From NCBI GenBank assembly GCA_030063045.1, contig JAQSEB010000124.1:186001-250000 (forward strand): a stretch of 64,000 nt of DNA, read 5' to 3'. Shown here in pieces: positions 2,667-64,000 of this stretch. Source of the stretch: Pratylenchus scribneri. Its lineage: Eukaryota > Nematoda > Chromadorea > Rhabditida > Pratylenchidae. The position numbers were made by a program, and so were the translations under genes. Numbering within the stretch: the stretch's first letter is position 1; every line of letters starts with the position of its first letter. The notes below the pieces were generated by a model. It did not search any database. It was not told the origin of the DNA and saw only the letters and a list, made by a program, of their open reading frames with translations.

Positions 2667-5600
2667 ATGAAAATTCACCTAACTCTTATAAATTCAACAA
2701 ATTCCACATTAACAACACCACCAACACAAAATGCGCTGAAATCAATTCTATTAATTGTACTCTTTTTTGGCACATTCCTCGCCGCAACCAGTTCATTCCT
2801 CCTCCGCCGTTTTGTTTTGGGCCAACAACAAAGTGGCCATCATCCAAATTCTTCGCCAACATTTAAGCTGGCATTTTCGTTGCTTTCCTGCTTTGGTGCC
2901 GGCGTCTTTTTGGCCACATGTTTGTTGGATTTGTTGCCGGATTCAATGGATTATATAAAACAAGCGGAAAAGAGGATGGGCACTGAAATCCAATTTCCAT
3001 TGCCTTCATTTTGTGTGGCATTCGGCTTTTTGCTTGTTTTGCTACTTGAACAGGTTTCCAGTTTCCACTCAAAAATTGGCTATCCGAATTTTGCGCATTT
3101 TGTTCAATATCTTGACAATATTTCGCAAATTTATTTATGGAGTTTATGGAGTACAGGGGAAAATGATGATGGGGTCGAATCCATCTGTCAATCAAATTGT
3201 CAATCGTCGGTGGATTAGAAAAGTTAGAACATTTCAGTGCCAATTTTGACGAGTTACAATCACAACTCAACAAAGAATGAAACAGTTTGATACGATTTTG
3301 GTAACATTTTATAGAGCTAATCAAGCTATATTGAATATTAATTTCGGGATCTATGAATAGGAAGATATCAATTTCAAGCTTCTAAATTATTAAAAATGAT
3401 TTTCATTCACTTTTCGACTTTAAATCACTTAAATTTAGATTAATTAGAAAAGTTTAATTCACAATTTAATAGAACGTAAAAAGCTCTATTTAGTGATACT
3501 AAGATGGTTTCAAACTGTTTCTTCTTTGCTGAGTTTTGACCCATCAAAATGACTGGCATCGGAACATATCACAGAGCATTGGCGGAGGAAAACCGGTTAA
3601 AATTAGCAAAAATTTAAAATTTTTAAATTTTTTTCGTCCATAGAAAATATAAAACAATGAATCTCGATGAGCTAAAGCTATGCATTAAAATCAAAAAAAA
3701 AAGTTAAGCTGTAAAAACAAATAACAGTCGCCCAGAGCAGAGTTGATATGACCCTTCTGCTGCCCTCTCATCAACCTCCAACTCCATCAATGATTGACAA
3801 TTTGGTTGACAGATTACATTGTCCATATATTACTTTCCCTTGAGTCTCCCTCCCAACTCCATCATTTGATGTAAAAATGATTATCAAAAACAAAAATTGG
3901 CCAACAGAATGATTGGCCAAAAAAAGAAAAACTCGATTTTGGTCTATTTTACCATTTTTGGTCAGAATTTTTTGCAATTTCCAATCAAATCTACTGAATT
4001 AGGGCTATAAAATTTATATCTAATTTACTAGATTTAATCTTAGATAGATTGAAAATTTGACTTGATGCATAAAATTCGGGTACAACAAATTAATTTCCTT
4101 GCAAAAATTATTATTCTTAATTTTCATTAGACTATCCTTTATGCACATAAACGTGGTTGGATCGGTAATAGTAGGATGGAACAACTTCTCGCGCATCAAG
4201 AAGATTCCGGTCTATTAACATCAACGAGAAGACATCATTCTCATGAAAATAATAATGATGAAGGTTTTGCCCAAATTGATGGCGAGGAGGAGGATGCCCA
4301 TTTCGATCCAAAAACACATTCAACTTTTCGGGTTCTTCTATTGGTTTTTGCCCTCTCATTACATGCTATGTTCGAAGGCCTTTCCATAGGAATGGTTTCG
4401 GATGTGCCAATTCTATTACAGGTTATTATAAAATAATCGAAAAAGAATAGTCCAATTTGTCGCCGTTCCAATTTTTTAGTGCTGATAATTGGTTATTTTG
4501 GTGGCAACTTAATGGAGAAATCTATTCAATGATATTATTTTTAAATTCATTCCGAATTGTTGGAGTTATGCTCAAAATCCATTTAAATAACTATAATTAA
4601 TGGATTAACCAAATTTTTAGTAGTTTTAAAGTTATAAGAAGCTCGATAACTATTAATCCAATGTTAATAAAATTAATATTATTGAATAGCAATCTCAATC
4701 TCAACTTGTTCTTTAATTTGGTAACAGAAACCATCAAAATTATTTTAATCCAGATAAGTCAAAAATGCTTGCAAAAGGTTGGATCGGTGACAAATTGGGG
4801 CTTATCCGCTTATCGCGCTAGGCAGTTTATACGATATGCAATCGAAATGTTAATAAAAAATTTCAAAATTATAAATCAAAAAATCATTTTTTTCAGTGAT
4901 AATTAAGAATAAATATTTAAATATGAATCTGCCTATCATTTATGACAATTTGGTTATGGTTAGCAAATCTATTATTTATCATGGAGAGGTCATATTAAAT
5001 ATTAATGTCGGCAATTGGGGTTACATAAATGTTGTAATATGAATAAAATAAGGTTACATTTATGTTTAAATCACAAAATTACATCAGAAAGACATATAAT
5101 TTTGCATAAAATTGATTGTTTTGTTAAATTTTTGGCTATTTTAAATTGCTTAAAAAACATAATGCATTAAATTCCCATAATCCATTATTCATTTACTATT
5201 TTGTATTTGTATAGATTTTCTTTGCTTTGATCATTCATAAAACTGTGGTTGGCTTCAGTCTTGGAGTTCGTCTTGTGCAATCAAAATTAAATTCAACAAA
5301 AATTGTTTTATCATGTGCCTTATTTTCTGGGCAAATATTGTTGGGAGGTTTCCTTGGTTTGGCCATTATGGACATTCTCAATGGAAGTTCTTCCATATTT
5401 CTCATTTCCGGAATACTTCAGGTTTCTTATATTTGGTTGAACAGAAATTTGTGCAATTCCGAATTTTGCTCTATAAAAAATTAATTAGGGAAAAGAATTA
5501 GTGGATTTGATTGGAAAATGAAAAAGCAGCAAAATGGGCCAATCGGCCAGTTTTGGTTTTTTCGCCATAACTTTCTGTCCAATTATGTTTTCGTTCAATC

Positions 5601-13866: not shown

Positions 13867-16800
13867 TCAGAGACTCATCCACTCTTCTTCATCTTCGATC
13901 TCTTCCTCTTCATCCTCATCTTCTTCTCCATCCTCATCATCCTCATCTTCTCCTTCTTCTTCGTAAACGCAAACTCCGTAGGGGCGGATGGCGTCGGCAT
14001 TTGGAAGGATCCAATATTCGGCATGGTTAGGGTCATTGTCGCCGGTTTTTACAATTTTCAGCTTCGATGGGTCCACTCGCGTTTGGATGATCACACGATA
14101 GGATTTTCCCTGAAAATAATGGGAGAGGATAATTTGATTCAATTAATTTGTAATTTTATTCGTAAAAAGGGGAATGATTTATCCAATGATGCCTAAAAAT
14201 TTATCTTACAAAACCCATTAAAAGGAATAAAAACTAAAAATATTTCTTTTTCAATAGAAGCAAAAAAAAATAATTTCAAAATTAAAAAAGAAAATTTGAT
14301 GGAATGGATTATAATAAATACCAACTTAAAATATTTTAAACGCAATCAATAAAGAGCAGATTTATATTGTTTTCAATATTTTTTGTTTGCGATTTAAAAA
14401 TAACTTGAAACCTATGTAAAACATTTCTTTATCAATGTTTTTGATGATTTTCATGATATTTTTTGTCAATATTCATCAATATTTTGCCATTTTTTGGCCG
14501 TCAATATTGACATCAATATTTCGGCATTTTGGCCACTTTCGTCAATATTGAAGATTTTTGAAAATTTTCAGTAAATTTTATAGTTTGTAAAAATTGAAAT
14601 TTTTTTGATAAAATTTTCGAAAAATTTTGCTACTTTTTGAAAAAATAGTGAAAAAATTGATTTTGGAATTTTTTGAAAAAATTATCAAAAATTGTTAGAA
14701 TTTATTGAATAAAAAAATAAAAAAAATTTTTTCAAATTTTTTACTAAAATTTATAATTTTTAAAAATTTAACAATATTTCAGGATTTTTCTCCAATATAA
14801 ACCCGCTCTCTAGCAATCAATTAAAAAACCCCCACCTCATGTTCGAAATGGGTAGCATAGTCGAGGGCTGCTTTCGGATTCGGCGTGCAGTAAATGCCCT
14901 TGCCGTACAAAAATCGAACACCCTTCGCCAGATCGAAACCATCTCGAGCGATTTCCTGTGCGTTCTTTTCCAGAGTGCCATGGTAGGCAACCGGCCATTC
15001 CTTATCATCGGTTCCGGTGCGATCGCCTGGTACGCCGAGCCAATCATTGTTCTCGTATTTGTCGAACACCTGTAGAAATTTTATAAATTTATTGTAAATT
15101 TATTCTTAAAATTTTTTAATTATATAGGATTAGGAAATAAAGGGCCGGAATTTTTATTGATAAATATTGTTGAAATTTTAAAAAATGATATATTTAAAAA
15201 AATTCGAAAATTTTTTGTTTTAATACATCTCATTCATACATTTTTTAAAAAATTCCCAAAATCAATTTTTACATTTTTTTTTTCAAAAAAGTGGCAAATA
15301 ACTAAAATTTTATGAAAAAATTTTCATTTTTTCCAAAATACTATAAAAATTCAGTAAAATTTTAAAAATCTTCAAAATATTGACGAAAATTACAAAAACC
15401 TGCCAAAAACTGCATTGACAGCTAAAAATGGCAAAATATTGATGTTAATAAAAATCCCAGCCCTAAATAAGGTATTATTCCCAATTTTTTTGTTATTTTT
15501 CATAATTCAATCATAATATTATTTTAAGCAATTAAAAATGATAAATATTCAACCTTAATGGCATAACGCATCGAGCCCAGCGGGCGATGATAGACAAACT
15601 TGTGACGCATATAAATTTCGTCATCATCCTATGAATGTGCAAATTATTAATTATTTTATCAATAAAAATTGCCTCAATCTGGGTAAAATCATAATCCCAT
15701 TCTTTGTCGAAGTATCGATGGTCAATAAAATAGATTGTCTCATGGCCACCGCCTCGAAGTCGAAGGACCAAATGCAAAATGAATTCGGCGCCAATTTTAT
15801 AATCACCCAGAGTGCGTCCATCTTCCAATTGCTTCTGAAAAGATAAAACAATTTTATATTGACAATGAAAAATTGTGAGAAAACCGCAGCGAAAATGAGC
15901 CGTTGTTGATCCGGCGGAATGCCCTCTTTGTCCTGGATCCTGCTTTTCACCTCTTCAATTGTATCGGATTTGTTGACTTTAAGCTCGATTGTCTTGCCAG
16001 TCAATGTTTTCACATAAATTGGATAGCAACTAATAAATATAAAATAGCATTTTTTTTTTTTAAATTGTGCCTTTTTTCATGAGAAACAAAATAAAATGGG
16101 AATATTTTTACCAGAAAAAGATTTTTTGACTTATAATTAATCAGAAACCGGTTTTAGACCCAAAAACCTTATACCATTTTGTAGATCTCATCAACTGATA
16201 TATAAATTAAATTTTGGGCTAAAGTGTTTAAAACCAAAACTAGCAATATGGTTTAAACTGTTTAACTCTTTAATTTTAGTCAAAATTTGGCATTTTTACC
16301 ATTCAATGCGTCTGGACTCTGGATGAGAACTACAGGTCAAATTGGTATATGCTTTGTAGGGACTAAAACCGGTTTCTGATTTAATAGAATTCAAAAAATT
16401 GTTTTTATTGGTAAAAAAAGCATTTTTGTCATTAAAAATATAATAGCTAATAAAGCACTTACTTCTCCGGAATTTCCACTTTTTTTGACTGATGATGATG
16501 ATCATTCGCTTTGGACAGCCGTTCCTTTTCCACCGTGATTCGTTGGTAAAATTGAGTAAAAATTGTGTTAATGTCCAGCGCCTCGCATGGGTATCCTTCT
16601 CCGCGCTTTGCCTCGACTTTTGCCTAAATATTAAAAATTGAATAAATATTACAAATCGGATCTGAGGCCATAGGCCTTTTTCTCTCTAATATATGTGTTA
16701 CAATTACAACAAAAGCTAGAAAAATGCAAAAGCTGCTGAAAATTTGAGTAAGAGACGCAGAAAATCGATATTAAGTTTAGGGCTAAGGCTAGGGGCTAGA

Positions 16801-52000: not shown

Positions 52001-55000
52001 ATGTTCGGTATGGAAAAAATAATAAATTTAACACCAACGTAAATATTCGAGCTTAAAAATATTTTAATTTTTACATTGAAAAGGCCTATAGTTTTTTTCA
52101 ATAAACAACGAATTTAATTTATTGTGATACCAAAACTTTTCGCGTCTCTATCTTTTTAATAAATTCTGGCCTAATTATATGGCCTTAAAATTGTTTTAAT
52201 TTTTTAAAGAATATTTTTATATAATTTTTTCTATTTATAAATTAAAAAATTTTTTCAATATTTTCTAACCAAAGTAATATTATAAAAATGAGAATTTAAA
52301 AGAATATTTTAATATTAAAATAAGATAAATATTCCTTCAAATTCCAATGGAGAAAAATCAAAAAAATTTCGTTAAAAATCTATCACAATTAAAATTTTTT
52401 ATTTAGATTTTTTGTAAAAAATATTTCCAAATTCATAGACCCAAAAGCCGAAGACAGAAAGAAGTTGTGAAAAATTGTCTTGTCCGGCAGCAATATTAAA
52501 TGGTGGGGCACATTGGGAGACGAGCCCATGGGGACAATGTGGTCAAAAAGGGGAATGCAAAAATGGGGAGAATGGAACACAAAAGAGGACGGTGGAATGC
52601 AGAAATGCACAACGACTGCTTCCCGGTGAATATTCCAAAATAATATTAATAATTATTTTTTATTTATTTTTCTCAATTAAAAATTAATTTTTGGTACATT
52701 CAACGAAATTTGTTCACCTAAATTTTTGCTAATTAAATCAATTTTACATTTTAGTTTTAAAATTTAGTTAATTTGTTAATCCATTGTAGCCCTGATTTGG
52801 ATGAATTAATTGGAGGAAAAAATTAATGAATTTAATTGGAAATTAGCAAAAAAATATGACCTTAAAAAGCAGCAAAATAGGTCAATTTCATGAAGTTTTC
52901 TTTTTTTTTTGGTCTATAAATTTCTGTGGACAATTATATTTTTGACCAATCATTTTGATATATGAAAATGATTTACAGGAAAAGATTAATCCAATGGTAA
53001 ATTAAGTACTGCCATTCGAGTAGCTGTTTAAAAATTAAATTTTTGACAACTTTTCTTAATTAATTATATTTAAATTTAATAGGACCATTTTGTTCTCATT
53101 TGGAGCGACCAAAAGACAGTCAGCCTTGTGAATGTCCCAGGCAACAAATGCCCACAATTTTGGCAAGAGATGATGCCAATGGGAATGGACAAAATGATGG
53201 TGGCAAAAATTCAACAACTGGCCAAAAAATGACAGTCAATGTTGCCAAATGGGAGACCGGCGAATGGTCACAGGTAGAACGAAATTTTTTTAAAATTATT
53301 CTAATTAAATTAAAATTAAATAAAAAATTTTATTAACTAATCCTTCTATTTTATTTAAATTTAATTTTAAAAAATAATAATTTAATTTTTAGTGCTCCGT
53401 TTCATGCGGCATCGGTGGATGGCGCCGTCGATCGGTGTTTTGTGCCATCCAAAATTCAACATCATCAACGGTGGCAAATCCACTAACCAATAATTTATTG
53501 CGATGCCCGGAGGCGGAAAAACCTTCACAATTTGAGCAATGCAATGGCAACAAAAAATGTCCAAAAGCTGATGAACAAAATGGCCGATTAAATAGGTGTG
53601 TTTATATGATAATAAAATTTTCATGAAAATAATTTATTTATACGGGAAAATATTATCAAAAATTCTAAATGGCGATTTATAAAATGTTATTATTAATGGT
53701 AATTTTAAGGAATTGCGTTAAAAATGGATCAGCCTTTTTAAGGCCATAAAACTTTGCAAATTCAGCCTTCTTTTTTAATCTCCTATTCTGCACTAATCCC
53801 TGGGCTAACCTAAACATAAAAACCAAGCTGAAATGGGCAGGTTAAATTGATTAAAAATTATTTTTAAAATTAAAAAAAATGTCGATAAATCTTACAGAAA
53901 TTAATTCGATGCCTTAATATTCATCTAATTTTTATCTTCAAAAAATATTTTAATTCCATTTTAATTTGAAAAGAAATTTTGATATCAGAACAATACCGCC
54001 AAAAATTCTGCAGCAAAAATTTTTTATTCTTTTCCCTTTTCCTCTATAAATGCAGTAGGAAAATAAAGTGAAAGAGAATGAGAAGAGAGAATGCGGAGAA
54101 CATTAAATTCTCCACTAATTCCCCCAACCATTTTGTTGCCCTTTCATTTGTTTCCCATTCAAAATATTTCAGCTCAATTCTATATAAATTTAAGCGAAAA
54201 CGAGGGATGCATCCTTGGGAGCCAGGAAATAAAACTTCGTTTATTACTACTGAAATTTTTGGAACGGGGGGATATCCGGTGCCCCCCTTAAAATAAACCA
54301 TTTAATTTTTTTAATGTCTATAATTATATAAATATAATTTAAAGGGGGTTCTTTTATTTAAAGCAGAATGGAATAATATTTTATATTTATTTTTTGAATA
54401 TTATTTCATTTTTTTGGTTATTTTTAAAGACTTAACGCCGATTAAGAGAGAAAAAAAACAAAACAATTTAAAAATTAATAATTGCATAAATTTAATTAAA
54501 TCTCTTATTTATTTAAGCGTAAATACCACTAAAATAAAATCCAGCAGCAAAACAGTTTGGCTAGACTACGCTTAATTTATTCTTTTCCTCTAGCAATAAT
54601 GCAGGAAAAAGAGTGTGAGAAAATGGAAGAAAGAATGAATAGAGCACATTGAATCTCCCATCATTTCCTCAACACGTCTATTGCCTTTCATTTGCTTCCC
54701 ATTCAAAATAGTTCGGTTCTTTTCTATATAAAATTGAAATGGCGAAAGGGAATGCACCAAGCTGCGTGGCAGCACAATACTACTTGAAATTTTTGGAACT
54801 GGGGGAATATCCGGAGTCCCCCTTAAAATATTTATCAACTATAATAAGTCAGTTCTGTCACACTAAAAATAGGGAGTCATTTATTTTGGCAAAAAAATGC
54901 TGAAATTGGCAAAAAAAATAATTATTTTGGCAAAAAGTAAATATATATTTATTTTGGCAAGAAATATACTGAAATTGGCAAAAAATATATTTATTTTGGC

Positions 55001-58000
55001 AAAAACAATAAAAAATATAATCGCTCGTTATAATCAATGCAAACCGGTTTAAAATGAACAGGATAGAATTACATTTTACGATATGATGATTGACAGAAAT
55101 ATTAACGAATGGAAAAAGTTTAATAATATATTATGATAAGAATTAATAAATTAGGTCAAAAGTTAAAACTCAAAATAAATAAATAAATTAATTAATTAAA
55201 CAAAATTAATGAAGACAGTTCAAATAATTTAGCTGAAAATGAAATGCTTGAAATTTCACGTATTCATATTTTTTCATCTTTGCCATTAATAATTGGATTT
55301 ATTTATAAAATTCTCTTCTATTTAATGTTTAATCCCAATAAAGCAAAAAAGCCAAGAGCAAATATTTTGGCGACCGCTTTTATTTTCTTCCTTTTCCTCT
55401 AGTAATGCAAGAGAAAAATAGAATATTAGAAAGTGTAAGAGAGAATGGAGAGACATTATAAATTCTCCACAATTTTCCCAACCATTCTTTTGCCCTTTCA
55501 TTTGCTTCCCATTCAAAATATTTCAGCTCAGTTCCATTTAAAATAGAGTGAAAATGGTGGATCGAGATTTTCTGGAGCCGGGAGCTCAATACCTTTACTA
55601 CTTATAATTTTTGGAACGGGGGATATCCGGAGTCCCCCTTAAAATATTTAAATAATTTTTTTTATTAATTACACATTCAAAAATAATATAATTTGAATGA
55701 CTTAAATGTACTGAGATAAATGGTAATATTTAATTTTTAAAAGGAAATCGTAAAAAATCGGTGTTTTTTAAATCATACCCTACCATAATGCTAGTCCTAA
55801 ATAATTTTAACTAAAAGTATTAGCACTTCATCATGGTCATGATAAATGAACTAAAGATGTTCTAAAGATGAATTTATTTTTATCACTTTATTTATCAAAA
55901 TTTTAATTCTTTAAAAATGAATTTTATGAAGTGAACCTCTTTTTCACCTACTTTTACCACAAAAAGGCATAAGCAATTAAATTTATTTTTTGAATATGGC
56001 TAAATTTGTTCAACAAATATTTAGCTACAAATTTTCGCTTTTTCTACGCTTTATTTTCTTCTTTTTTCCTTTAGCTATTGTGCAGGAAATAGAGTGTAGG
56101 AAAATGGAAGAGAGAACGTTGAATTCTCCACTATTTTCCCATCCCAATCCCAACCATTCTTCCCTTTCATTTGCTTCTCATTCAAAATATTTCAGCTCAA
56201 TTCTATATAAAATTAAGTGAAAGAGTATTGCCGTCCACGAGTCCGCCTCGTTTATCACTACTATTAATTTTTGGGACGGGGGAATATCCGGATTCCGGAG
56301 TTCCCCTTAAAAATATTTATTAAATGCTTTAAATATTTATTTAAAAAATAATAATAGAAATAAATGTTTACGGTTTTATGGTTCCATGTATTAAAAATAT
56401 TTAATATTTGCCGTTAATTTAAGCTTAACATAACCAGCCAAAGCCAATATAATTTTAAGGTTCCATAGTTAAATATTTAATATTCACCATTTTTATAATT
56501 GTTAAATTTATTTTATTTTATTTGTTTATTAGGCCCAACAGCAGCCAACACAATCTTTGCTAAACTAGATTTTTATTTATTTTCTTCCCTTTTTCCTCTA
56601 ATAATAATGCACAGAAAAATAGACTGAGAGAAAATGGAAAGAGAGAACATTGAATCCTCCAACCTCCACTATTCCCCCAACTATTCTGTCGCCCTTTCAT
56701 TTGCTTCCCATTCAAAATATTTCAGCCCTATTCAATATAAATTTATGTAAAAGAGTTTTGTTTATCTCGAGACCATGGTCTTGGCAAGACACTTATAATT
56801 TTTGGAACGGGGGTTATCCGGAGTCCCCCTTTAAAAAAATACATACAGCAGTTAAATATTTTTGTATTAATTATTTTTTAAATAATATAAATAACTCGAA
56901 TGAAAATTAAGTGAAATTTTAATATAATGGGATTGATAATAATTTTAAAAATGTCATAAAATGGGTGTCTGTTGAAACCATAAAATTTAGCCAAATCGTG
57001 CTTCATTTTAAACCACCTAACTAAACCAAAATTAAGACCTAAAATTTCCCATGATAGATGACCTAAAAAAAATTTTCAAAATTAATTTTTGTAAATTTAT
57101 GTCACTATATTTTTCAAAGTTTTAATTCTTTAAATATTCTATGGCTCTCTCTGTACATCGTAATTCTACCATCAAAACGAATAAGCAATTGAATTTGTTT
57201 TGGATTATGGCCAAATTAACCCAAAATATTTTTTATTAAAATATTTTATATATTTTTATTTAAAAAATAATAATAGTAAATTTTTACATTCTAGGTTTCA
57301 TTTATTAAAAATATTTTTCTCCATTAATTGGTTTTATTTTATTTATTTGTTTGTTAGATCCAAAAGCCAACACAGTCAAAGTTTCCCTTTCTTCTAGAAA
57401 TGTAGCAGAGGAAAATAAAGTCAAAGAGAATGGAAGAGAGAAAATGGAAAGAGCATTAAATTCTCCACCTTTTTTCCAACCATTCTATTGCCCTTTCATT
57501 TGCTTCCCATTCAAAATATTTCAGCTCAATTCCATTTAAAATGGAGTAAAAGAGTTTTGTTTAGCACGAGACCCCGGTCTCCTGGTATGACTACTTATAA
57601 TTTTTGGAACGGGGGGATATCCGGAGCCCCCCTTTAAATACTTTAATAATATTTTTAATAAATATTTATTAAAAAATGAATAATAAAAAATAAATGTTTA
57701 AACTTCCAGATTTGAATATTTAATATTTTTTCACCATTAATAATTGGTTCTATTTTATTTTATCTTTTAGGCCCAAACTCCAAATCCAACAGCAGCCAAC
57801 AGAGTCAAAGACAACAGCAAAAATTTTTTTGCTAAACTAGACATATTTATTCTCTTTTTTTCCTCTAATAATAATGCACAGAAAAATAGAGTAAGAGAAA
57901 GTGGAGAGAAAGAATGGAGAGAATAGAGGGAACATTAAATTCTCCACCATTTTCCCAACCATTCATTTTCCCTTTCATTTGCTTCCCATTCAAAATATTT

Positions 58001-61000
58001 CAGCTCAATTCCTTTTAAAATTAAGTGAAAGAGTCTTGCTTAACACGAGATCCCGGGTCTTTCTTAATGACTACTTATAATTTTTGGAACGGGGGGATAT
58101 CCGGAGTCCCCCTTAAAAGGCGTTAAATGATTTGTCATTTATGAATTCATTCTTGATTTTAATCAATTAATTAATTCAATGGCTAATTAATGCGTTTAAT
58201 TTATTTTTTTGCCATTACATTTTGTCAATGCCAGTTTATAATATCAATTTATATGAAATGTGGTAATATATTTACATTATTTTTCCCACGATTAACAAAC
58301 AATTTTTTCCAGTAAAAAACAAATTTTGAGTTAACGATTGACTTTCATACTGAATATGATTAAGCGAAATTTACTGTCCTGCAGAATTCCGCGGCCATTA
58401 TCAAAAACGAAATTTTTCTGCCCAATATCCATTCTCCGAATTCTGAATCCTAGCCTAAATCCTAAGATTCATCCACCGAATCCTTTTTTAAAATTTAATT
58501 TTGACCCTAAATTTTACTTTGTTGTACTTATATTTGTTATTGTTATTGGTTTTGGAGGGTCGCAAATTTCCCATACGCGCTAGCTATAAGGAAAAGAAAA
58601 GAGGGAAAAGAAGTGAGAAAATGGGAAGAGAGAGAATGATGGACGCGTCGTCTATTGGATGCCTCTGTTTGCTTCCCATTCCATTTTTTCCTACTTGAAT
58701 TTTAATAGCTGAGAATAAATTGAAAGTAACTCAATAGGCGTCGGCTGGCGGACTAAAACGTCCCCCTAAAATAAAATTTTTGGAACGGGGAGGAATCCGG
58801 AGCCTCCCTTAAAATTCTTTTATGATTATAAAATTCGCAAGGGCCTAAAATTGCGGTTCATTTTTTGCCATTTATCAATTTTATAACGTCAATTAATGTG
58901 GAGCTTATAAATTCATTTTACCCACAATTTTTTCTTACATTTAGCCAATAATTTTTCCAACTAAAACAAATTCCGAAATTTAACGATTGACCGGACCAGT
59001 TCAACTGGCCGATATCTTAACTGGACACCTTCGCTTTTAGCTCTTTAAGTAAGAAACCAATATAGATAATTTTAGTGTCAAATTAAAGAGCTCACTGCTG
59101 GCTATCCTATGATAAAAGAGTTATTTGTTTTGATTCAAGAAGAGTTGTACTTTAAAAACCATCATATTAAAAAAAAGACTATTATATTAGCAAATTTTTC
59201 ATGGTTTTTTGAATACAATTTTACCAAATTTTAACAAAACCATATTAATCTTATATCTATCGATAGCAAGCAGTAAGCTCTTTTATTTGACATCAAAATC
59301 ATACAAGCAAGCGATGGCGCCCAGGAAGTGAGAAAATGGGAAGAGAGAGAATGATGGACACGCCGCCAATTGGATGCCTCTATTTGCTTCCCATACATTC
59401 CTTTTCCCACTAAAGTGGTATAAATGAGAATAATAATTGAAGAAATTCAAAAGTAACCCAATACCTTTTGGCTTAGGACAAAAAAGTCCTAAAGTAATTT
59501 TTGGAACGGGGAGGAATTCCGGAGCCTCCCTTGAAATAACTTTACAATTATTAAATTCGTCGAACGAATGCCTAAAAATTGTGGTTCATTTCTTGCCATT
59601 TGCCAATTTTGTAACGGTCAATTAATTCGAATGCTTTAATTTATATTTTTTTTGCATTTTTTCTCGCAATTTAACGTTTAACCACAATTTTCCCTACTAA
59701 AACCGAGATTTAATGATTGGCTGCCTCCTTTCATATTCATAGCTAGGGAACGAGGGAAAAGAAGCAAGAAATTGTGAAGAGAGAGAATGATGGACAAGTC
59801 CCCACTCCCCAATTGGATGCCTCTGTTTGCTTCCCATACATTCCTTTTCCCATTGAAATTGTATAGATGAGAATTAAATTGATTAATACTAGTGACCGCT
59901 TAGGTTTGTGCTTAGGACAAAAAGTCCTAAAATAATTTTTGGAACGGGGAGGAATTCCGGAGCCTCCCCTAAAAAAATGCTAATAAAATTTACAAATTCC
60001 GAAATATAGAAAATTGAGTTTACATAAAATTAAAAAATTCGTCAACTCGGCTAATGTCAGCTTTGCGGTCAACCCTTTAGTCCCCACTTCAAATAAATTA
60101 TTATAGAGCGTCAGAAAATTTTTAAAATACTTTCATCTTTTGCAATAAAGTGTCTTCTATTTTATGGTATAAAAAATATTTTTGTACCACTAAAAAATTT
60201 TTTAAAGATAACCATCCCCTTTGTGAGCTGTGACAGTTTTTTTCATTTTATGTAAATTCAGCTTTAAAATGGGTATCAATTATTGGCATTGTAAATTTTA
60301 TAACGGTTTATTAATGTGAAAGCTTATATTATATAAATTCATTTTTAATGTAATTTTTTTCTCATGATCACGATTAGCCTACAATTTTCACAGTTAAAAC
60401 TAAAACCGAGATTTAATTATTGACTGCCTTGCCTATGCCTACTTTCATACAAAGGGAAATAAAGAAGGAAAAGAAGTGAGAAAATGGGAAGAGAGAGAAT
60501 GATGGACGTGTCTGCCAATTGGATGCCTCTGTTTGCTTCCCATACATTCCCTTTCCCACTAAAACGATATAGATGAGAATAATAATTGAAGAAATTCAAA
60601 ACTAAGCCTTTACCTATCCGCTTTGGACAAAAAAGTCCTAAAATAATTTTTGGAACGGGGAGGAATCCGGAGCCTCCCTTAAAAGCGCATTATTTAATTA
60701 TCTAGTTTTAAGGATTGAACTCCTTTCATACTAACTTTTTTATAAGGAAAAAAAAGATATATGAATTAAATTCAGGAAGGCCCAAAAATTGCGGTTCATT
60801 TCTTGTCATTGTTTAATTTTATAACGCTCAATTAATGTGAAGGCTTATATAAAATTTATATTTTTCTGCATAATTTTTCTCAATATTACCCAAAAAATGT
60901 TCTAAGTTATTGACTGCCTACTTTCATACCAAACCAAAGAAAAGAGGGAAAAGAAGTGAGAAAATATAAAAGAGAGAGAATGATGGACGCGTCCGCCTAT

Positions 61001-64000
61001 TTGATGCCTCTGTTTGCTTCCCATACATTCCTTTTCCCACTAAAGTGGTATAGATGAAAATAAATTGAGTAAACTCGTGGTCGTGGGAGGAAGCGTTTAT
61101 CCTATGCGCTTAAATAATTTTTGGAACGGGGAGGAATCCGGAGCCTCCCTTAAAATACTTTTGTAATTTTATTAAAATTTAATTTATTTATTTAATTAAA
61201 TGATATAATTTAATAAATATTTTCAATTATTTTTTAAAGTTCATCATTTTCCATTCCAACTGTGAGAAATGCCACCTCAAATTCCTCGATTACTTCGATT
61301 CCAAATGAAAAATCACTCGTTGGAATTTCAACAAATGCCACCAAATCCATTAAATCTGACTCATTTCTGCCTGATAATATGGAAAATACCGCTGGCATGG
61401 AATTGGGCCATCCTCGCTGGGAAAGTGGGCCTTGGAGTGCGGTGAGTTTTTTTTTTTGAAAAAATTTAATGAATTTTTTAAAATAAAATTAAAATTAATA
61501 TAATAATTTTATTTGATAGAATTATTATAAATTAATAAAAAATATTTAAAATTATTATCAAAATATAAATAAAATATTAAATTAAAAAAATAATATACAT
61601 TTTAAAATTAATTTAAAATTTATAAAAAATATTAAATATTTATTTAAAAAATAATAATTTAAAACTACTAAATTTAAAAAAAATATAATTAAATTTTAAA
61701 AATTGTTTAAAAAAATATCACAAAAATTTCCCATTAAATTCTCTCTATTAATTTAGTGCCCCCGGAATTGTGCTTCCAACAATCAATCGGTGAATCGGAC
61801 ACGTCGAATTCGTTGTGTTGATTCCATGTCGGGTCGGGAATTGGACCCAACCAAATGCCCGGCAAATTCGCGGCCATCCAGCGAGCATCGATGCCATCGC
61901 CAAACAAATTGCCCCAAATGGCATAAAGGCGAATGGGAATTGGTAAAATTTTAATATTGGAAATTATATAGATAAAAAATTTTTTATTAATAATTTAAAT
62001 TTTTATTTTTCAATAATTATTTATTAATTAATTTTATTTCAGTGTTCATCCAGCTGCGGTCCGGGAATCACTCGACGCGACGTTTTCTGCACAAAAGGCC
62101 GAACAATTCAATCTTCAATGATGCAGAAAGTGCCGGATGCCGAATGTATGACGCTGGAGTCGAAGCCATTTGAAACGCGCAAATGTGAACTGAGCAAATG
62201 TCCAAAATATGGATGGCGCGTTGGACCATGGTCAAAGGTGAGAAGTGATAAAATTTAAATTGAAAAAAATTAAATTAGAAACAGCATTTAATTTAATTAA
62301 AATTATCATTTATAGGCAACTATACTCTATGTTCCATTTTTTTGTTTTCTTTTCCTAAAAAAATGAGAATTTATTTTGTGATTTTTGCGACCTAAAAATT
62401 TATTAAATATTATTTAAAATTTTAAGTGGAATCACTTGGATTCCACGTTCCAAAAATTGCGCTAATCACGATTCTGATGTCTCGCACCTAACTTAAATCA
62501 GGGGTCTGATCTTCGTCTCTTGGTTAAGGGCTAAACCACAGTTAAAAACGCTAACTATGGTTAAGATTTGAAAAAAGTGATTTTCGTCTTTCCCAGTTAA
62601 GAGTTAACCATGGTTTTTTTAACTGCAGTTAACGCTCAATTTAACCACAGTTTAAATCTGTTAACCAAGGTTTACTCTAAATTTTGATTTTCGTTTAACC
62701 GTAGTTTAGAATCCCCCTTTATATTTTAACCAAGCTCCATGGCTTAGTTAACGGACTTTTTTGGCCATAACTTTTTTGTTTTTAAGTTTTATACAATATA
62801 AATTATATTTTCGTGTTTGGCTCATCGAGACGCGTCGAATGGTATATAAATTATTTCGAAAAAAAATGTAAAATTTTTAGACCCATAGGGGGGACCCTTC
62901 ACTTTTTGCCGAAAAATTTTTTCTCGAAAATAAGATAAAATAATTTTTATTATGAATAAGAATGCTTATTTATTATTTATTTTTAATTTTAAGCATGCAT
63001 AAATAAAAATAATAAAGCAAAATAAATTTTTTAATTTCTCCTTTATTTCCCTTGTAAAATCGTGGTTTATTTAACCATGGTTTAGCAAACTCTGGTTAAA
63101 GACGAAAATCAAAGTTTTAGTTGATTTTTAACCGCGGTTAAATAAACTATGGTTAAGGCGTTAACCATGGTTTGCTTAACCAAGAGACGAAGATCAGACC
63201 CCAGCAGGGGTTTTCGAGGTAAAGAAAACAACTTAAATGGGGGAATTTCTCTAACGAATGGTAAGAAAATTGAATAGGAAGCAGGCAGTCACATGCAATA
63301 AAAGAGAGACTCATTGCACTCTATTTCTTCATTTTCTGTCTTCTTTTACTTTCCTTTTCCCTTGCTGCTATGCCAATTCTCCCCCAAGCACATTGCCTTA
63401 ATGAAGGGAAAATAGTTCACTCTTGCTGGGACAGAGATTAAAAGTATTTCACTGGAAGTGGAAGCAGAGAATAAAATTGGTCAAAAATGACGTTAAAATT
63501 GGAAATTAATGCGGAGAGAAAGCAAAGGGATAATAGGAAATAGGGGTATAGTTTTCTGTGGAATTTGGTCGATTTGTTGATTCTCATATAATTATTTCCC
63601 CCATTCGGTTTGATATTTTGGAATTTTTTACCGTTATTAAGTTTAGTTTCTGCTGCAATGCGAACCGGTTTCTGAAATTTTTGCTTAAAAATAAAAATGA
63701 ATTTAAAAAAATTAAAAATTTATTTTAAAAATTAATAATAAAAAATAATAATATATTTTTTAGTGCGCCGATCCATGCAAACCAAGTGAACAGAAAAGGC
63801 GTGTCTATTGCATGAGGTAAATTGTGACAAAATAATAATATTAATATTTAAAAATAAAGGAGAAATTTTTAATAAAATTATAAATTAATTTAATTAAAAA
63901 TATATTTTTTAGTGATCAAGGGAAACGGGCGGCCACAAAAATGTGCCAGAATGAAACAAAAATTGCCAACAATGATAACGATGTTCAACCGCGGGAAACA
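35702..64000 (+). CDS. gon-1: GON-1, ADAMTS9/20-type metalloprotease (5' and central part, 34 exons; continues past window)
   Basis: The 34 exons joined here give 2094 codons without a break and run off the right edge. Order: basic Ser-rich N-terminus, hydrophobic anchor, propeptide, furin site, zinc metalloprotease domain, disintegrin-like region, central thrombospondin type 1 repeat (TSR), Cys-rich module, spacer, then a long TSR array. This order, and near-identity of stretches such as [17 protein letters not shown] and NGTGPLRSD to what I recall of Caenorhabditis GON-1, identify the orthologue. GON-1 remodels basement membrane during gonad and pharynx morphogenesis and also acts in ER-to-Golgi transport through its GON domain. 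The remaining TSRs and the GON domain should lie beyond 64000. Introns vary from about 70 bases to 7.6 kb; the largest holds twelve small RNA genes. Exon details are in the five entries that follow. Confidence 0.96.
37049..39160. other. gon-1 intron 4 with GC-richer block
   Basis: 2.1-kb intron. A block of higher GC at about 37370-37990 has a 140-codon frame without any recognised motif or splice signal; the rest is AT-rich. A 36-bp tandem repeat is at 38294-38403. The block could hold an internal promoter or enhancer, but nothing specific is visible. Confidence 0.45.
38294..38403. repeat. 36-bp tandem repeat, three copies
   Basis: Three near-identical units of 36 bp (AAATATATTTTTAAATTCTT, then ATACATTTCCATAATT) in a gon-1 intron; the third has two changes. 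Confidence 0.9.
39161..41404 (+). CDS. gon-1: gon-1 exons 5-8: propeptide and furin site
   Basis: Exons 39161-39434, 39901-40093, 40627-40954 and 41342-41504 (the last enters the protease domain). Exon 5 begins at a tandem acceptor (GGAAGAAG) where either AG keeps the frame, adding or dropping one Glu. It contains VRRQKRQAV, a possible early furin site. Exon 6 has [20 protein letters not shown], the propeptide Cys and motif of the M12B family (CFYxxxV...S.V.LC). Exon 7 gives [16 protein letters not shown], then [11 protein letters not shown], a second basic cluster. Exon 8 carries [20 protein letters not shown]: the RRSRR furin site at residues 532-536 releases the catalytic domain. The propeptide keeps the enzyme latent and aids folding. 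Confidence 0.88.
41405..43573 (+). CDS. gon-1: gon-1 exons 8-12: zinc metalloprotease domain
   Basis: Exons 41342-41504 (second part), 41875-42044, 42331-42456, 43115-43403 and 43473-43573. Seen in order: [77 protein letters not shown], then the reprolysin zinc motif [12 protein letters not shown] (residues 690-701; three His ligands and catalytic Glu intact) and the Met-turn HIMAPT (Met 720). Exon 11 must end at GCAAT/GTTTGT rather than four bases later: only that junction leads into [12 protein letters not shown] in frame. All residues needed for proteolysis are present. Family substrates are proteoglycans such as versican and aggrecan and basement-membrane matrix. Confidence 0.94.
42754..42957. 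mobile_element. MITE-like inverted repeat (TTATCTGGGTCCA family, copy 2)
   Basis: TTGGTTATCTGGGTGCA at the left and TGCACCCGGATAACTTA at the right. Inside are telomere-like phrases such as AACCCTATAC and TTAGGGATACGG. In the gon-1 intron just before the zinc-motif exon. Confidence 0.6.
43860..46709 (+). CDS. gon-1: gon-1 exons 13-18: disintegrin-like end, central TSR, Cys-rich module, spacer
   Basis: Exons 43860-44039, 44114-44214, 44608-44868, 45490-45607, 45700-45890 and 46479-46709. [14 protein letters not shown] closes the disintegrin-like region. [19 protein letters not shown] to YRPCNIQDCPW is the central TSR, with the WxxW tryptophans and CSRTCGGG fucosylation site. Then come [29 protein letters not shown] and [11 protein letters not shown] of the Cys-rich module, and the spacer with [36 protein letters not shown] and [19 protein letters not shown]. 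Spacing and cysteines match ADAMTS9/20. The intron at 44869-45489 holds a 234-bp inverted-repeat element. Confidence 0.94.
45041..45274. mobile_element. MITE-like inverted repeat in gon-1 intron 15
   Basis: GTACTTATGGAGTTCACATC at the left and GGATGTAAACTCCATAATAC at the right bound about 234 bp; the interior contains GGATAGGATGGGATAAAAAT and CCTATCCCTAACATCC in inverted order. Confidence 0.65.
47712..64000 (+). CDS. gon-1: gon-1 exons 19-34: thrombospondin type 1 repeat array
   Basis: Exons 47712-47869, 48615-48891, 49487-49689, 50173-50322, 50551-50703, 50955-51152, 51416-51602, 51870-52007, 52439-52625, 53083-53273, 53393-53595, 61240-61441, 61757-61942, 62043-62237, 63764-63816 and 63913-64000 (cut by the window). 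They encode about a dozen C-terminal TSRs, opened by motifs such as [56 protein letters not shown] and [14 protein letters not shown]. Exon borders fall in two places only: before the first Cys of CSxxCG (phase 0) or just after CSVS (phase 2). One TSR (exons 19-20) has lost the CSxxCG core, and one (exon 27) reads CGQKGEC. Exon 30 opens with a long Ser/Asn/Thr linker. TSRs bind matrix and cell surfaces. Confidence 0.93.
54200..54290 (+). ncRNA. SmY-like Sm-class RNA, copy 1
   Basis: Sm site AAATTTTTGGAAC at 54253-54265, then the 3' hairpin GGGGGGATATCCGGTGCCCC. The 5' structure is a longer stem AAACGA...TCGTTT around GGATGCATCC. The 5' end is estimated. Confidence 0.7.
54740..54825 (+). ncRNA. 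SmY-like Sm-class RNA, copy 2
   Basis: 5' stem GCTGC-GTG-GCAGC (54761-54773); Sm site AAATTTTTGGAAC; 3' hairpin GGGGGAATATCCGGAGTCCC. The 5' end is estimated. Confidence 0.75.
55555..55642 (+). ncRNA. SmY-like Sm-class RNA, copy 3
   Basis: 5' stem GAGC-CGGGA-GCTC (55575-55587); Sm site AATTTTTGGAAC (from 55606); 3' hairpin GGGGGATATCCGGAGTCCCC. Confidence 0.75.
56220..56310 (+). ncRNA. SmY-like Sm-class RNA, copy 4
   Basis: 5' stem ACGAG-TCCGC-CTCGT (56237-56251); Sm region AATTTTTGGGAC, one change from the others; 3' hairpin has a duplicated CCGGATT, so its loop is longer. Possibly weakened or decayed. Confidence 0.62.
56750..56833 (+). ncRNA. SmY-like Sm-class RNA, copy 5
   Basis: 5' stem AGACC-AT-GGTCT (56770-56781; the real loop must be larger than two bases); Sm site AATTTTTGGAAC; 3' hairpin GGGGGTTATCCGGAGTCCCC. 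Confidence 0.73.
57550..57635 (+). ncRNA. SmY-like Sm-class RNA, copy 6
   Basis: 5' stem GAGACC-CC-GGTCTC (57568-57581); linker CTACTTAT; Sm site AATTTTTGGAAC at 57599-57610; 3' hairpin GGGGGGATATCCGGAGCCCC. Confidence 0.77.
58030..58116 (+). ncRNA. SmY-like Sm-class RNA, copy 7
   Basis: 5' stem AGATCCCGGGTCT (58048-58060, one bulge); linker CTACTTAT; Sm site AATTTTTGGAAC; 3' hairpin GGGGGGATATCCGGAGTCCC. Last member of subfamily A. Confidence 0.75.
58730..58812 (+). ncRNA. SmY-like Sm-class RNA, copy 8
   Basis: First member of subfamily B. 5' stem GGAC-TAAAAC-GTCC (58750-58763); Sm site AAATTTTTGGAAC; 3' hairpin GGGGAGGAATCCGGAGCCTC. Confidence 0.75.
59069..59300. mobile_element. Inverted-repeat element between RNA copies 8 and 9
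   Basis: AGTGTCAAATTAAAGAGCTC, ACTGCTGGCTATC at the left faces GATAGCAAGCAGTAAGCTCT, TTTATTTGACAT at the right. About 230 bp, AT-rich inside, no coding capacity. Confidence 0.65.
59450..59533 (+). ncRNA. SmY-like Sm-class RNA, copy 9
   Basis: 5' stem AGGAC-AAAAAA-GTCCT (59475-59490); Sm site AATTTTTGGAAC; 3' hairpin GGGGAGGAATTCCGGAGCCT, one base longer in the loop. Confidence 0.77.
59890..59971 (+). ncRNA. SmY-like Sm-class RNA, copy 10
   Basis: 5' stem TTAGGAC-AAAAA-GTCCTAA (about 59912-59930); Sm site AATTTTTGGAAC; 3' hairpin GGGGAGGAATTCCGGAGCCT. Confidence 0.77.
60600..60682 (+). ncRNA. SmY-like Sm-class RNA, copy 11
   Basis: 5' stem GGAC-AAAAAA-GTCC (60625-60638); Sm site AATTTTTGGAAC; 3' hairpin GGGGAGGAATCCGGAGCCTC. 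Confidence 0.77.
61070..61153 (+). ncRNA. SmY-like Sm-class RNA, copy 12
   Basis: 5' stem AAGCG-(11 nt)-CGCTT (61091-61111), a sequence unlike its sister copies; Sm site AATTTTTGGAAC at about 61115; 3' hairpin GGGGAGGAATCCGGAGCCTC. Ends 87 bases before exon 30. Confidence 0.75.
62501..63202. mobile_element. 702-bp inverted-repeat element with TTAACC arrays
   Basis: Ends GGGGTCTGATCTTCGTCTCT and AGAGACGAAGATCAGACCCC are perfect inverted repeats of at least 27 bp, continuing into TTGGTTAA. The arms are rich in AACCATGGTTAA-type palindromes. CAG at both edges may be a 3-bp target duplication, which with GGG tips would suit PIF/Harbinger. A GACGCGTCG core of the AACCGGTTT family lies inside. Located in the gon-1 intron before exon 33. 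Confidence 0.75.

Follow-up and report, generated by a model that had tools for sequence, protein, structure and literature searches.

Organization of the locus

The window, meaning the whole 64,000-nucleotide stretch of Pratylenchus scribneri DNA analyzed here, contains twelve units on the same (plus) strand between ~54208 and 61157, inside a 7.6-kb intron (Table 1). The units are spaced 438–818 nucleotides from start to start. Their twelve Sm-like sites, all on the plus strand from 54254 to 61116, bear out the array that a preliminary description of this DNA had proposed. Two subfamilies are present, A (units 1–7) and B (units 8–12), where the classes A, B and other were set by our own loose motif rules.

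The same description had placed the array in an intron of gon-1, and the flanking sequence agrees. TSP1_ADAMTS exons are found on both sides of the array, an ADAMTS_spacer1 domain lies upstream of the array intron, and a GON domain is located 1.3–2.7 kb past the end of the window on the same contig (C124), which identifies the host as gon-1. The intron ends are inferred from the GT and AG dinucleotides. One TSP1 exon, used as the query of a protein search, returned no match. Elsewhere in the window we observe a ZIP zinc transporter exon (2667–3212, plus strand) and a ubiquitin-domain frame (15654–16076, minus strand).

Table 1. Features of the array and its surroundings (window coordinates unless a contig is named; each unit segment spans −46 to +42 around its Sm site)
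Feature	Position	Strand	Sm site	Promoter box	Remarks
TSP1_ADAMTS exon upstream of array	53393–53587				
gon-1 intron holding the array	53596–61239	+			Inferred from GT (53596) and AG (61238–61239)
Unit 1 (A)	54208–54295	+	54254–54265	54147–54158
Unit 2 (A)	54742–54829	+	54788–54799	54691–54702	TATA-like sequence at 54725
Unit 3 (A)	55560–55647	+	55606–55617	55501–55512
Unit 4 (A)	56220–56307	+	56266–56277	56170–56181	GGGAC variant of Sm site
Unit 5 (A)	56751–56838	+	56797–56808	56700–56711
Unit 6 (A)	57553–57640	+	57599–57610	57499–57510
Unit 7 (A)	58033–58120	+	58079–58090	57978–57989
Unit 8 (B)	58729–58816	+	58775–58786	58668–58679	5′ hairpin GGAC..GTCC
Unit 9 (B)	59450–59537	+	59496–59507	59383–59394 (by eye)	5′ hairpin GGACAAAAAAGTCC
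Unit 10 (B)	59888–59975	+	59934–59945	59826–59837	5′ hairpin GGACAAAAAGTCC
Unit 11 (B)	60599–60686	+	60645–60656	60532–60543 (by eye)	5′ hairpin GGACAAAAAAGTCC
Unit 12 (B)	61070–61157	+	61116–61127	61013–61024
Exons downstream of array	61757–61951, 62028–62255				Flanking exons with TSP1_ADAMTS
Thirteenth Sm-type gene, RNA part	62416–62505	−			Downstream of exon 62028–62255; 3′ stem GTGGAATC..GATTCCAC
Thirteenth gene, promoter part	63205–63358	−			Split from the RNA part in the window copy by an inserted element
Inserted element in thirteenth gene	~62501–63202				~0.7 kb; perfect 28-bp inverted ends
Thirteenth gene, counterparts	C201:178079–178379, C42:382348–382583, C81:258084–258318

The host gene is present in four copies, since all 20 GON-domain stretches among the matches listed in a search of the genome (227,248,964 bases in 276 contigs) fall on four contigs: C42, C81, C201 and C124, the contig of the window. 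We call these loci copies, a word that leaves their origin undecided; the P. scribneri genome paper points to a diploid in which many genes are duplicated (PMC10138993). Searches with one A and one B unit find 12 array units each on C124 and C42, and 11 each on C201 and C81. As pairwise matching of the units reveals, their order agrees unit by unit along the C42 and C201 arrays and across 8 of the 11 C81 units. The exon pair that flanks the array in the window is also found on C42 and C201, the two contigs compared.

The thirteenth Sm-type gene differs by 1% from its C201 counterpart in the RNA part (99% identity), and the promoter part beyond the inserted element is 83% identical. We had considered the minus-strand copy at 62447 as a retrocopy that would mark the transcript ends; this was ruled out, as the gene is split by the inserted element and is therefore uninformative on transcript ends. 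All four copies carry AAGTTAG/GTGCGAG, which makes an SL-type RNA a possibility for the thirteenth gene.

Sm site, 3′ stem and promoter box

An Sm site followed by a GC-rich 3′ hairpin had been described as common to the twelve units, and this holds throughout the array. The site is exactly AATTTTTGGAAC in 11 of the 12 units and reads AATTTTTGGGAC in the remaining one, at 56266; the hairpin is predicted after it in all twelve. With up to one mismatch the Sm-site pattern occurs 15 times in the window, as compared to a mean of 4.96 and a largest value of 13 in 100 shuffles. The 3′ stem-loop of unit 4 is 7 nucleotides longer than in its C42 and C201 copies.

Covariation supports the 3′ stem. Anchoring succeeded for 98 of 107 distinct units collected from the genome (9 were dropped) and yielded 42 distinct arm pairs. 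Stem positions 5, 6 and 7 pair in 34, 33 and 22 of these, against shuffled means of 26.6, 24.9 and 15.2, and the observed pairing was reached by 0, 3 and 7 of 2000 shuffles, respectively. Positions 1–4 are nearly invariant and so uninformative on covariation. Position 8 pairs in 12 arm pairs, below the shuffled mean of 22.1, which places the end of the stem at position 7. With RNAalifold, the 3′ stem alone is recovered in both subfamilies.

Upstream, each of the twelve window units carries a promoter box, TTTG[CT]TTC[CT]CAT, located by script in ten and by eye in units 9 and 11. A strict form of the box, GCTTC[CT]CA (a regular expression of our own), occurs 70–107 nucleotides 5′ of the Sm site at 81 of 112 collected Sm sites, a set in which one SmY gene and three further sites of Sm type are counted. 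By comparison, the strict box is found at 0.39% of 20,000 positions drawn at random from the window and at none of the window's 425 other AATTTTT motifs. It is absent from 31 of the 112 sites and a looser box from 16, and not every module copy in the family has a promoter box. By eye, similar boxes are seen upstream of the U1, U2, SmY and SL1 genes of this genome. The units thus have two features of Sm-class snRNA genes, namely an Sm site followed by a stem and an snRNA-type upstream element.

Comparison of the gon-1 copies localizes the conserved sequence. Identity to the window was averaged over ortholog sets from which rows with no true counterpart had been dropped (C81 for units 1, 2, 4 and 5; C201 for unit 12). 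It is 0.95 at −145 to −141, 0.92–0.98 over the promoter box (−105 to −81), 0.85–0.90 between the box and the 5′ half (−75 to −46), 0.83–0.98 in the 5′ half (−45 to −1), and 0.94–1.00 over the Sm site and 3′ stem (0 to +29). It remains 0.90–0.92 at +30 to +39 and falls to 0.64–0.77 beyond +40, where the ends of the alignments may have lowered the final bins. The constant module has a sharp end at about +39, and conservation makes no sharp step at the RNA start.

The 5′ parts and the start of the RNA

The 5′ parts are wholly different between the two subfamilies. The preliminary description had given all units one 5′ hairpin; we find a GGAC...GTCC hairpin in units 8–11 and different ones in the other units, so that no single hairpin is common to the twelve. 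The fold z-score is weaker than −0.9 in seven of them. Scored against shuffles over the 40 nucleotides before the Sm site, units 1–6 give z values of +0.10, −0.16, +0.09, −0.85, −1.79 and −1.62, and units 7–12 give +0.39, −0.38, −3.38, −2.78, −1.66 and −0.64, with a mean over the twelve of about −1.06. Among the units collected from the genome, the means are −0.49 for A (n = 23), −1.23 for B (n = 29) and −0.43 for the others (n = 55). The hairpin stands out most in units 9 and 10 and is weak in subfamily A, and in the ortholog alignment it looks broken in units 5 and 6 as found on C201.

The RNA 5′ end is not fixed by the sequence, because identity among the gon-1 copies shows no step there (at −75 to −46 it is as high as in some stretches of the 5′ half, or higher), and because the distance from promoter box to RNA start varies between gene types. 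The latter distance, read by eye, differs among the U2, SL1 and SmY genes, and we dropped it as a ruler for the 5′ end. We estimate an RNA of ~65–90 nucleotides.

Pairing of the 5′ halves with known RNAs was considered and rejected, there being no overall signal in the duplex z-scores of the twelve window units (means of −0.64 with SL1, 0.01 with the U1 5′ part, 0.11 with the U2 5′ part and −0.16 with SmY). Unit 2 reaches −3.32 with SL1, but as one of 48 tests. The idea that the ACTACT of subfamily A pairs with the branch-site region of U2 likewise found no support in the duplex test.

A genome-wide family

The array is one part of a much larger family. The 16-mer AATTTTTGGAACGGGG, which represents the Sm/3′-stem module, occurs at 114 places in the genome, and the reversed pattern used as control occurs at none. 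From 100 of these 114 places we built 41 clusters. Twelve of them have a U1, U2 or U5 gene at a distance of up to 10 kb (8 up to 5 kb and 14 up to 20 kb), and the 10-kb zones around these genes make up 0.66% of the genome. Cluster and family counts are not independent, because many clusters are homologous copies. The other 29 clusters, the gon-1 arrays included, have no such gene within 10 kb, and the gon-1 arrays stand 78–140 kb from the nearest U gene.

A search with an A unit gave 40 scored matches. The 27 that span the promoter are all in the four gon-1 arrays, and the other 13 cover the Sm/3′-stem module alone. Relatives of subfamily B are also present on C48 and C235, near U1 and U5 genes. 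On C48, two family genes, two copies of the SL1 leader and one U2 gene occur within 3 kb, and at least one of the two leader copies belongs to a true SL1 RNA gene. Related upstream boxes before U1 and U2 (by eye) and the neighborhood of 12 of the 41 clusters link the family to the U1/U2/U5 snRNA genes; unlike these, the array has no U-snRNA model match and its units are much shorter. When 20 other family loci were compared to the Rfam models, no SmY, SL or U-snRNA match was obtained at E ≤ 1, and there were three matches to unrelated families.

On the basis of the promoter box, the Sm site, the covarying 3′ stem, the conservation, the genome-wide family and its partial clustering with snRNA genes, the array probably belongs to an expanded orphan family of RNA polymerase II-transcribed Sm-class snRNA genes, in which a constant Sm/3′-stem module is joined to divergent 5′ halves.

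Relation to SmY RNAs

The preliminary description had called the units SmY-like. The estimated size and part of the layout fit that label: the Sm site and 3′ stem are clear, and the 5′ hairpin folds better than shuffles in some units only. Membership in the SmY family does not fit. Searching the array with the Rfam SmY and SL1/SL2 models, a check suggested in that description, produced no match at E ≤ 10; this is one half of the refuting outcome named there, the other being a lack of 70–100-nucleotide transcripts. Over 53500–63500, the Rfam search at this threshold gave no SmY, SL or U-snRNA, only 16 scattered sub-threshold matches to unrelated families, and at the gathering score no model matches anywhere in the window. 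The SmY model (RF01844) performs elsewhere in this genome, with 25 matches at E ≤ 10, six of them over the gathering score; these serve as positive control, and locus L031 scores 51.1 bits. The SmY stem-1 core (GGGCC..AAGACC), scored with a regular expression of our own, is present in 0 of 107 collected units versus 19 of the 25 Sm sites found where the SmY model has hits. With no model match at E ≤ 10 and no stem-1 core, we rejected SmY family membership for the array.

The SmY-like genes found elsewhere are of two kinds. An AT-rich group with GGGCCTTTTTTGAAGACCC includes the six over the Rfam gathering score (L031–L049, on C130, C140, C114, C86, C32, C168 and C107). A GC-rich group with GGGCCTAAAATTGTAGACCC has another 3′ stem and scores 31–32 bits, below the gathering score of 39 (L045–L048, on C50, C21, C236 and C8). 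A literature search on Meloidogyne and SmY found nothing relevant, and the words non-coding, snRNA and spliced leader are absent from the main text of the P. scribneri genome paper (PMC10138993).

The units could nevertheless be very divergent SmY RNAs that still help to recruit the SL1 snRNP with SNA-3/SUT-1, a reading that we regard as unlikely. Like SmY RNAs, which are also multi-copy, they are of a similar estimated size and have one Sm site, of the AAUUUUUGGA type, between a 5′ region (with a hairpin in some) and a 3′ stem, and by eye the promoter boxes are related. In C. elegans, SL and SmY RNAs are reported to have a common Sm site, AAU4-5GGA (PMC2200864). Many C. elegans smy genes are described as standing in introns of, or near, other genes (PMC11229312), and for this reason the intronic placement of Sm-class genes is not new. 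Against this reading, the array has neither the model match nor the stem-1 core, its 3′ stem is different, and genes that do have the core stand at separate loci in the same genome. Stem 1 of C. elegans SmY is reported as needed for binding to SNA-3/SUT-1, and SmY-10, given there as the sole SmY without the stem-1 motif, associates with Sm proteins, shows no binding to SNA-3/SUT-1 and gives no rescue (PMC11229312). The array RNAs would resemble SmY-10 as Sm-bound RNAs with no conserved stem-1 motif, their own Sm binding being an expectation; SmY-10 is, however, one gene, and here the Sm/3′-stem module is present in 114 exact copies.

Decay or maintenance

A second reading, which we judge improbable, takes the units for dead snRNA copies in a tandem repeat that is decaying and merely drifts along with gon-1. 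The two subfamilies presumably arose by tandem duplication, and several observations fit decay: the extra bases in the 3′ stem-loop of unit 4, the damaged look of units 5 and 6 on C201, and the thirteenth gene, cut from its promoter by the inserted element in the window copy. Drift alone is harder to reconcile with a promoter box, Sm site and 3′ stem that are better conserved than the sequence just downstream, with unit number and order largely kept among the gon-1 copies, and with a 3′ stem that covaries.

Relation to SL RNAs

We also considered SL RNA genes with unusual leaders, or recent descendants of SL RNA genes. Several observations point this way. The units have an Sm site followed by a 3′ stem and an snRNA-type promoter, and their GGAAC plus stem resembles the 3′ end of C. 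elegans SL RNA. Family genes flank SL1 leader copies on C48, at least one of them in a true SL1 RNA gene. At least one GT in the −75 to −15 interval is conserved in all copies compared for 9 of the 12 units, at varying places, and some are donor-like (TTAG/GTTTGT in unit 10, GAAA/GTAACT in unit 8 and AAAA/GTAACC in unit 9). For Meloidogyne hapla, many more SLs than first known are reported (PMC7986045).

The preliminary description had preferred SmY over SL RNA because it saw no leader with a donor at a fixed place, and its preference against SL RNA agrees with the donor counts. Scored with a generic donor table, and set against simple base shuffles of what are related sequences, sites above 6 number 0 in 23 A units (5.1 in shuffles), 2 in 29 B units (6.1) and 3 in 55 others (10.7), as compared to 5 in 7 SL1 genes (1.0) and 5 in 17 SmY genes (3.4). 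The family thus falls below its shuffled expectation where SL1 genes exceed theirs. Units 2, 11 and 12 have no GT at −75 to −15 that is conserved in all copies. The 3′ stems differ as well: the SL1 RNA gene at L056:1501–1609, which scores 42.8 bits relative to an Rfam SL1 gathering score of 75, has a longer and different one. Given the depletion of donor-like sites, the absence of a leader with a conserved donor at a fixed place, the lack of an SL1/SL2 match on the array at E ≤ 10, and 5′ parts that have nothing in common between subfamilies, we consider an SL RNA identity or recent SL ancestry very improbable.

The exact SL1 leader occurs 227 times in the genome (for example, L057–L065 and L072–L075). 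Most of the 20 copies examined are not SL RNA genes. They sit in different surroundings, many of them repeated, which gives the impression that transcripts carrying the leader were copied back into genomic DNA.

A probable orphan family of Sm-class snRNA genes

Sm-class snRNAs have their own promoter, a cap, Sm proteins bound at the Sm site and a protective 3′ stem. Because these properties are established for the class, we infer transcription, capping, Sm loading and 3′-stem protection for the array units as well. RNA polymerase II would transcribe each unit from its own snRNA-type promoter within the gon-1 intron, in the sense of the gene. The resulting RNA would consist of a short divergent 5′ part, with a hairpin in some units, the Sm site AAUUUUUGGAAC and the GC-rich 3′ stem. 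An Sm ring would be expected to assemble on AAUUUUUGGAAC and lead to a trimethylguanosine cap, and the stem would close and protect the particle. At least 114 copies of the Sm/3′-stem module belong to this family, which has its promoter type and Sm site in common with other nematode Sm RNAs but neither a conserved SL splice donor nor the SmY stem-1. As to function, our guess is that the RNAs form orphan Sm snRNPs, to be compared to C. elegans SmY-10, that act in connection with splicing or trans-splicing.

More tentatively, the family may represent a further large class of nematode Sm snRNPs, the third beside SL and SmY. In such a class, a constant module of promoter, Sm site and 3′ stem would be combined with many divergent 5′ halves, which might serve as interchangeable recognition parts of orphan snRNPs, with more than 100 copies in this root-lesion nematode and a twelve-gene array that stayed in its gon-1 intron as the locus was duplicated. 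In this plant-parasitic nematode, Rfam misses more than 100 copies of a likely snRNA gene module. A genome with SL1, SmY and a larger set of Sm RNAs that have neither a conserved donor nor the stem linked to SNA-3/SUT-1 would be a natural experiment on the role of the remaining parts of an Sm RNA.
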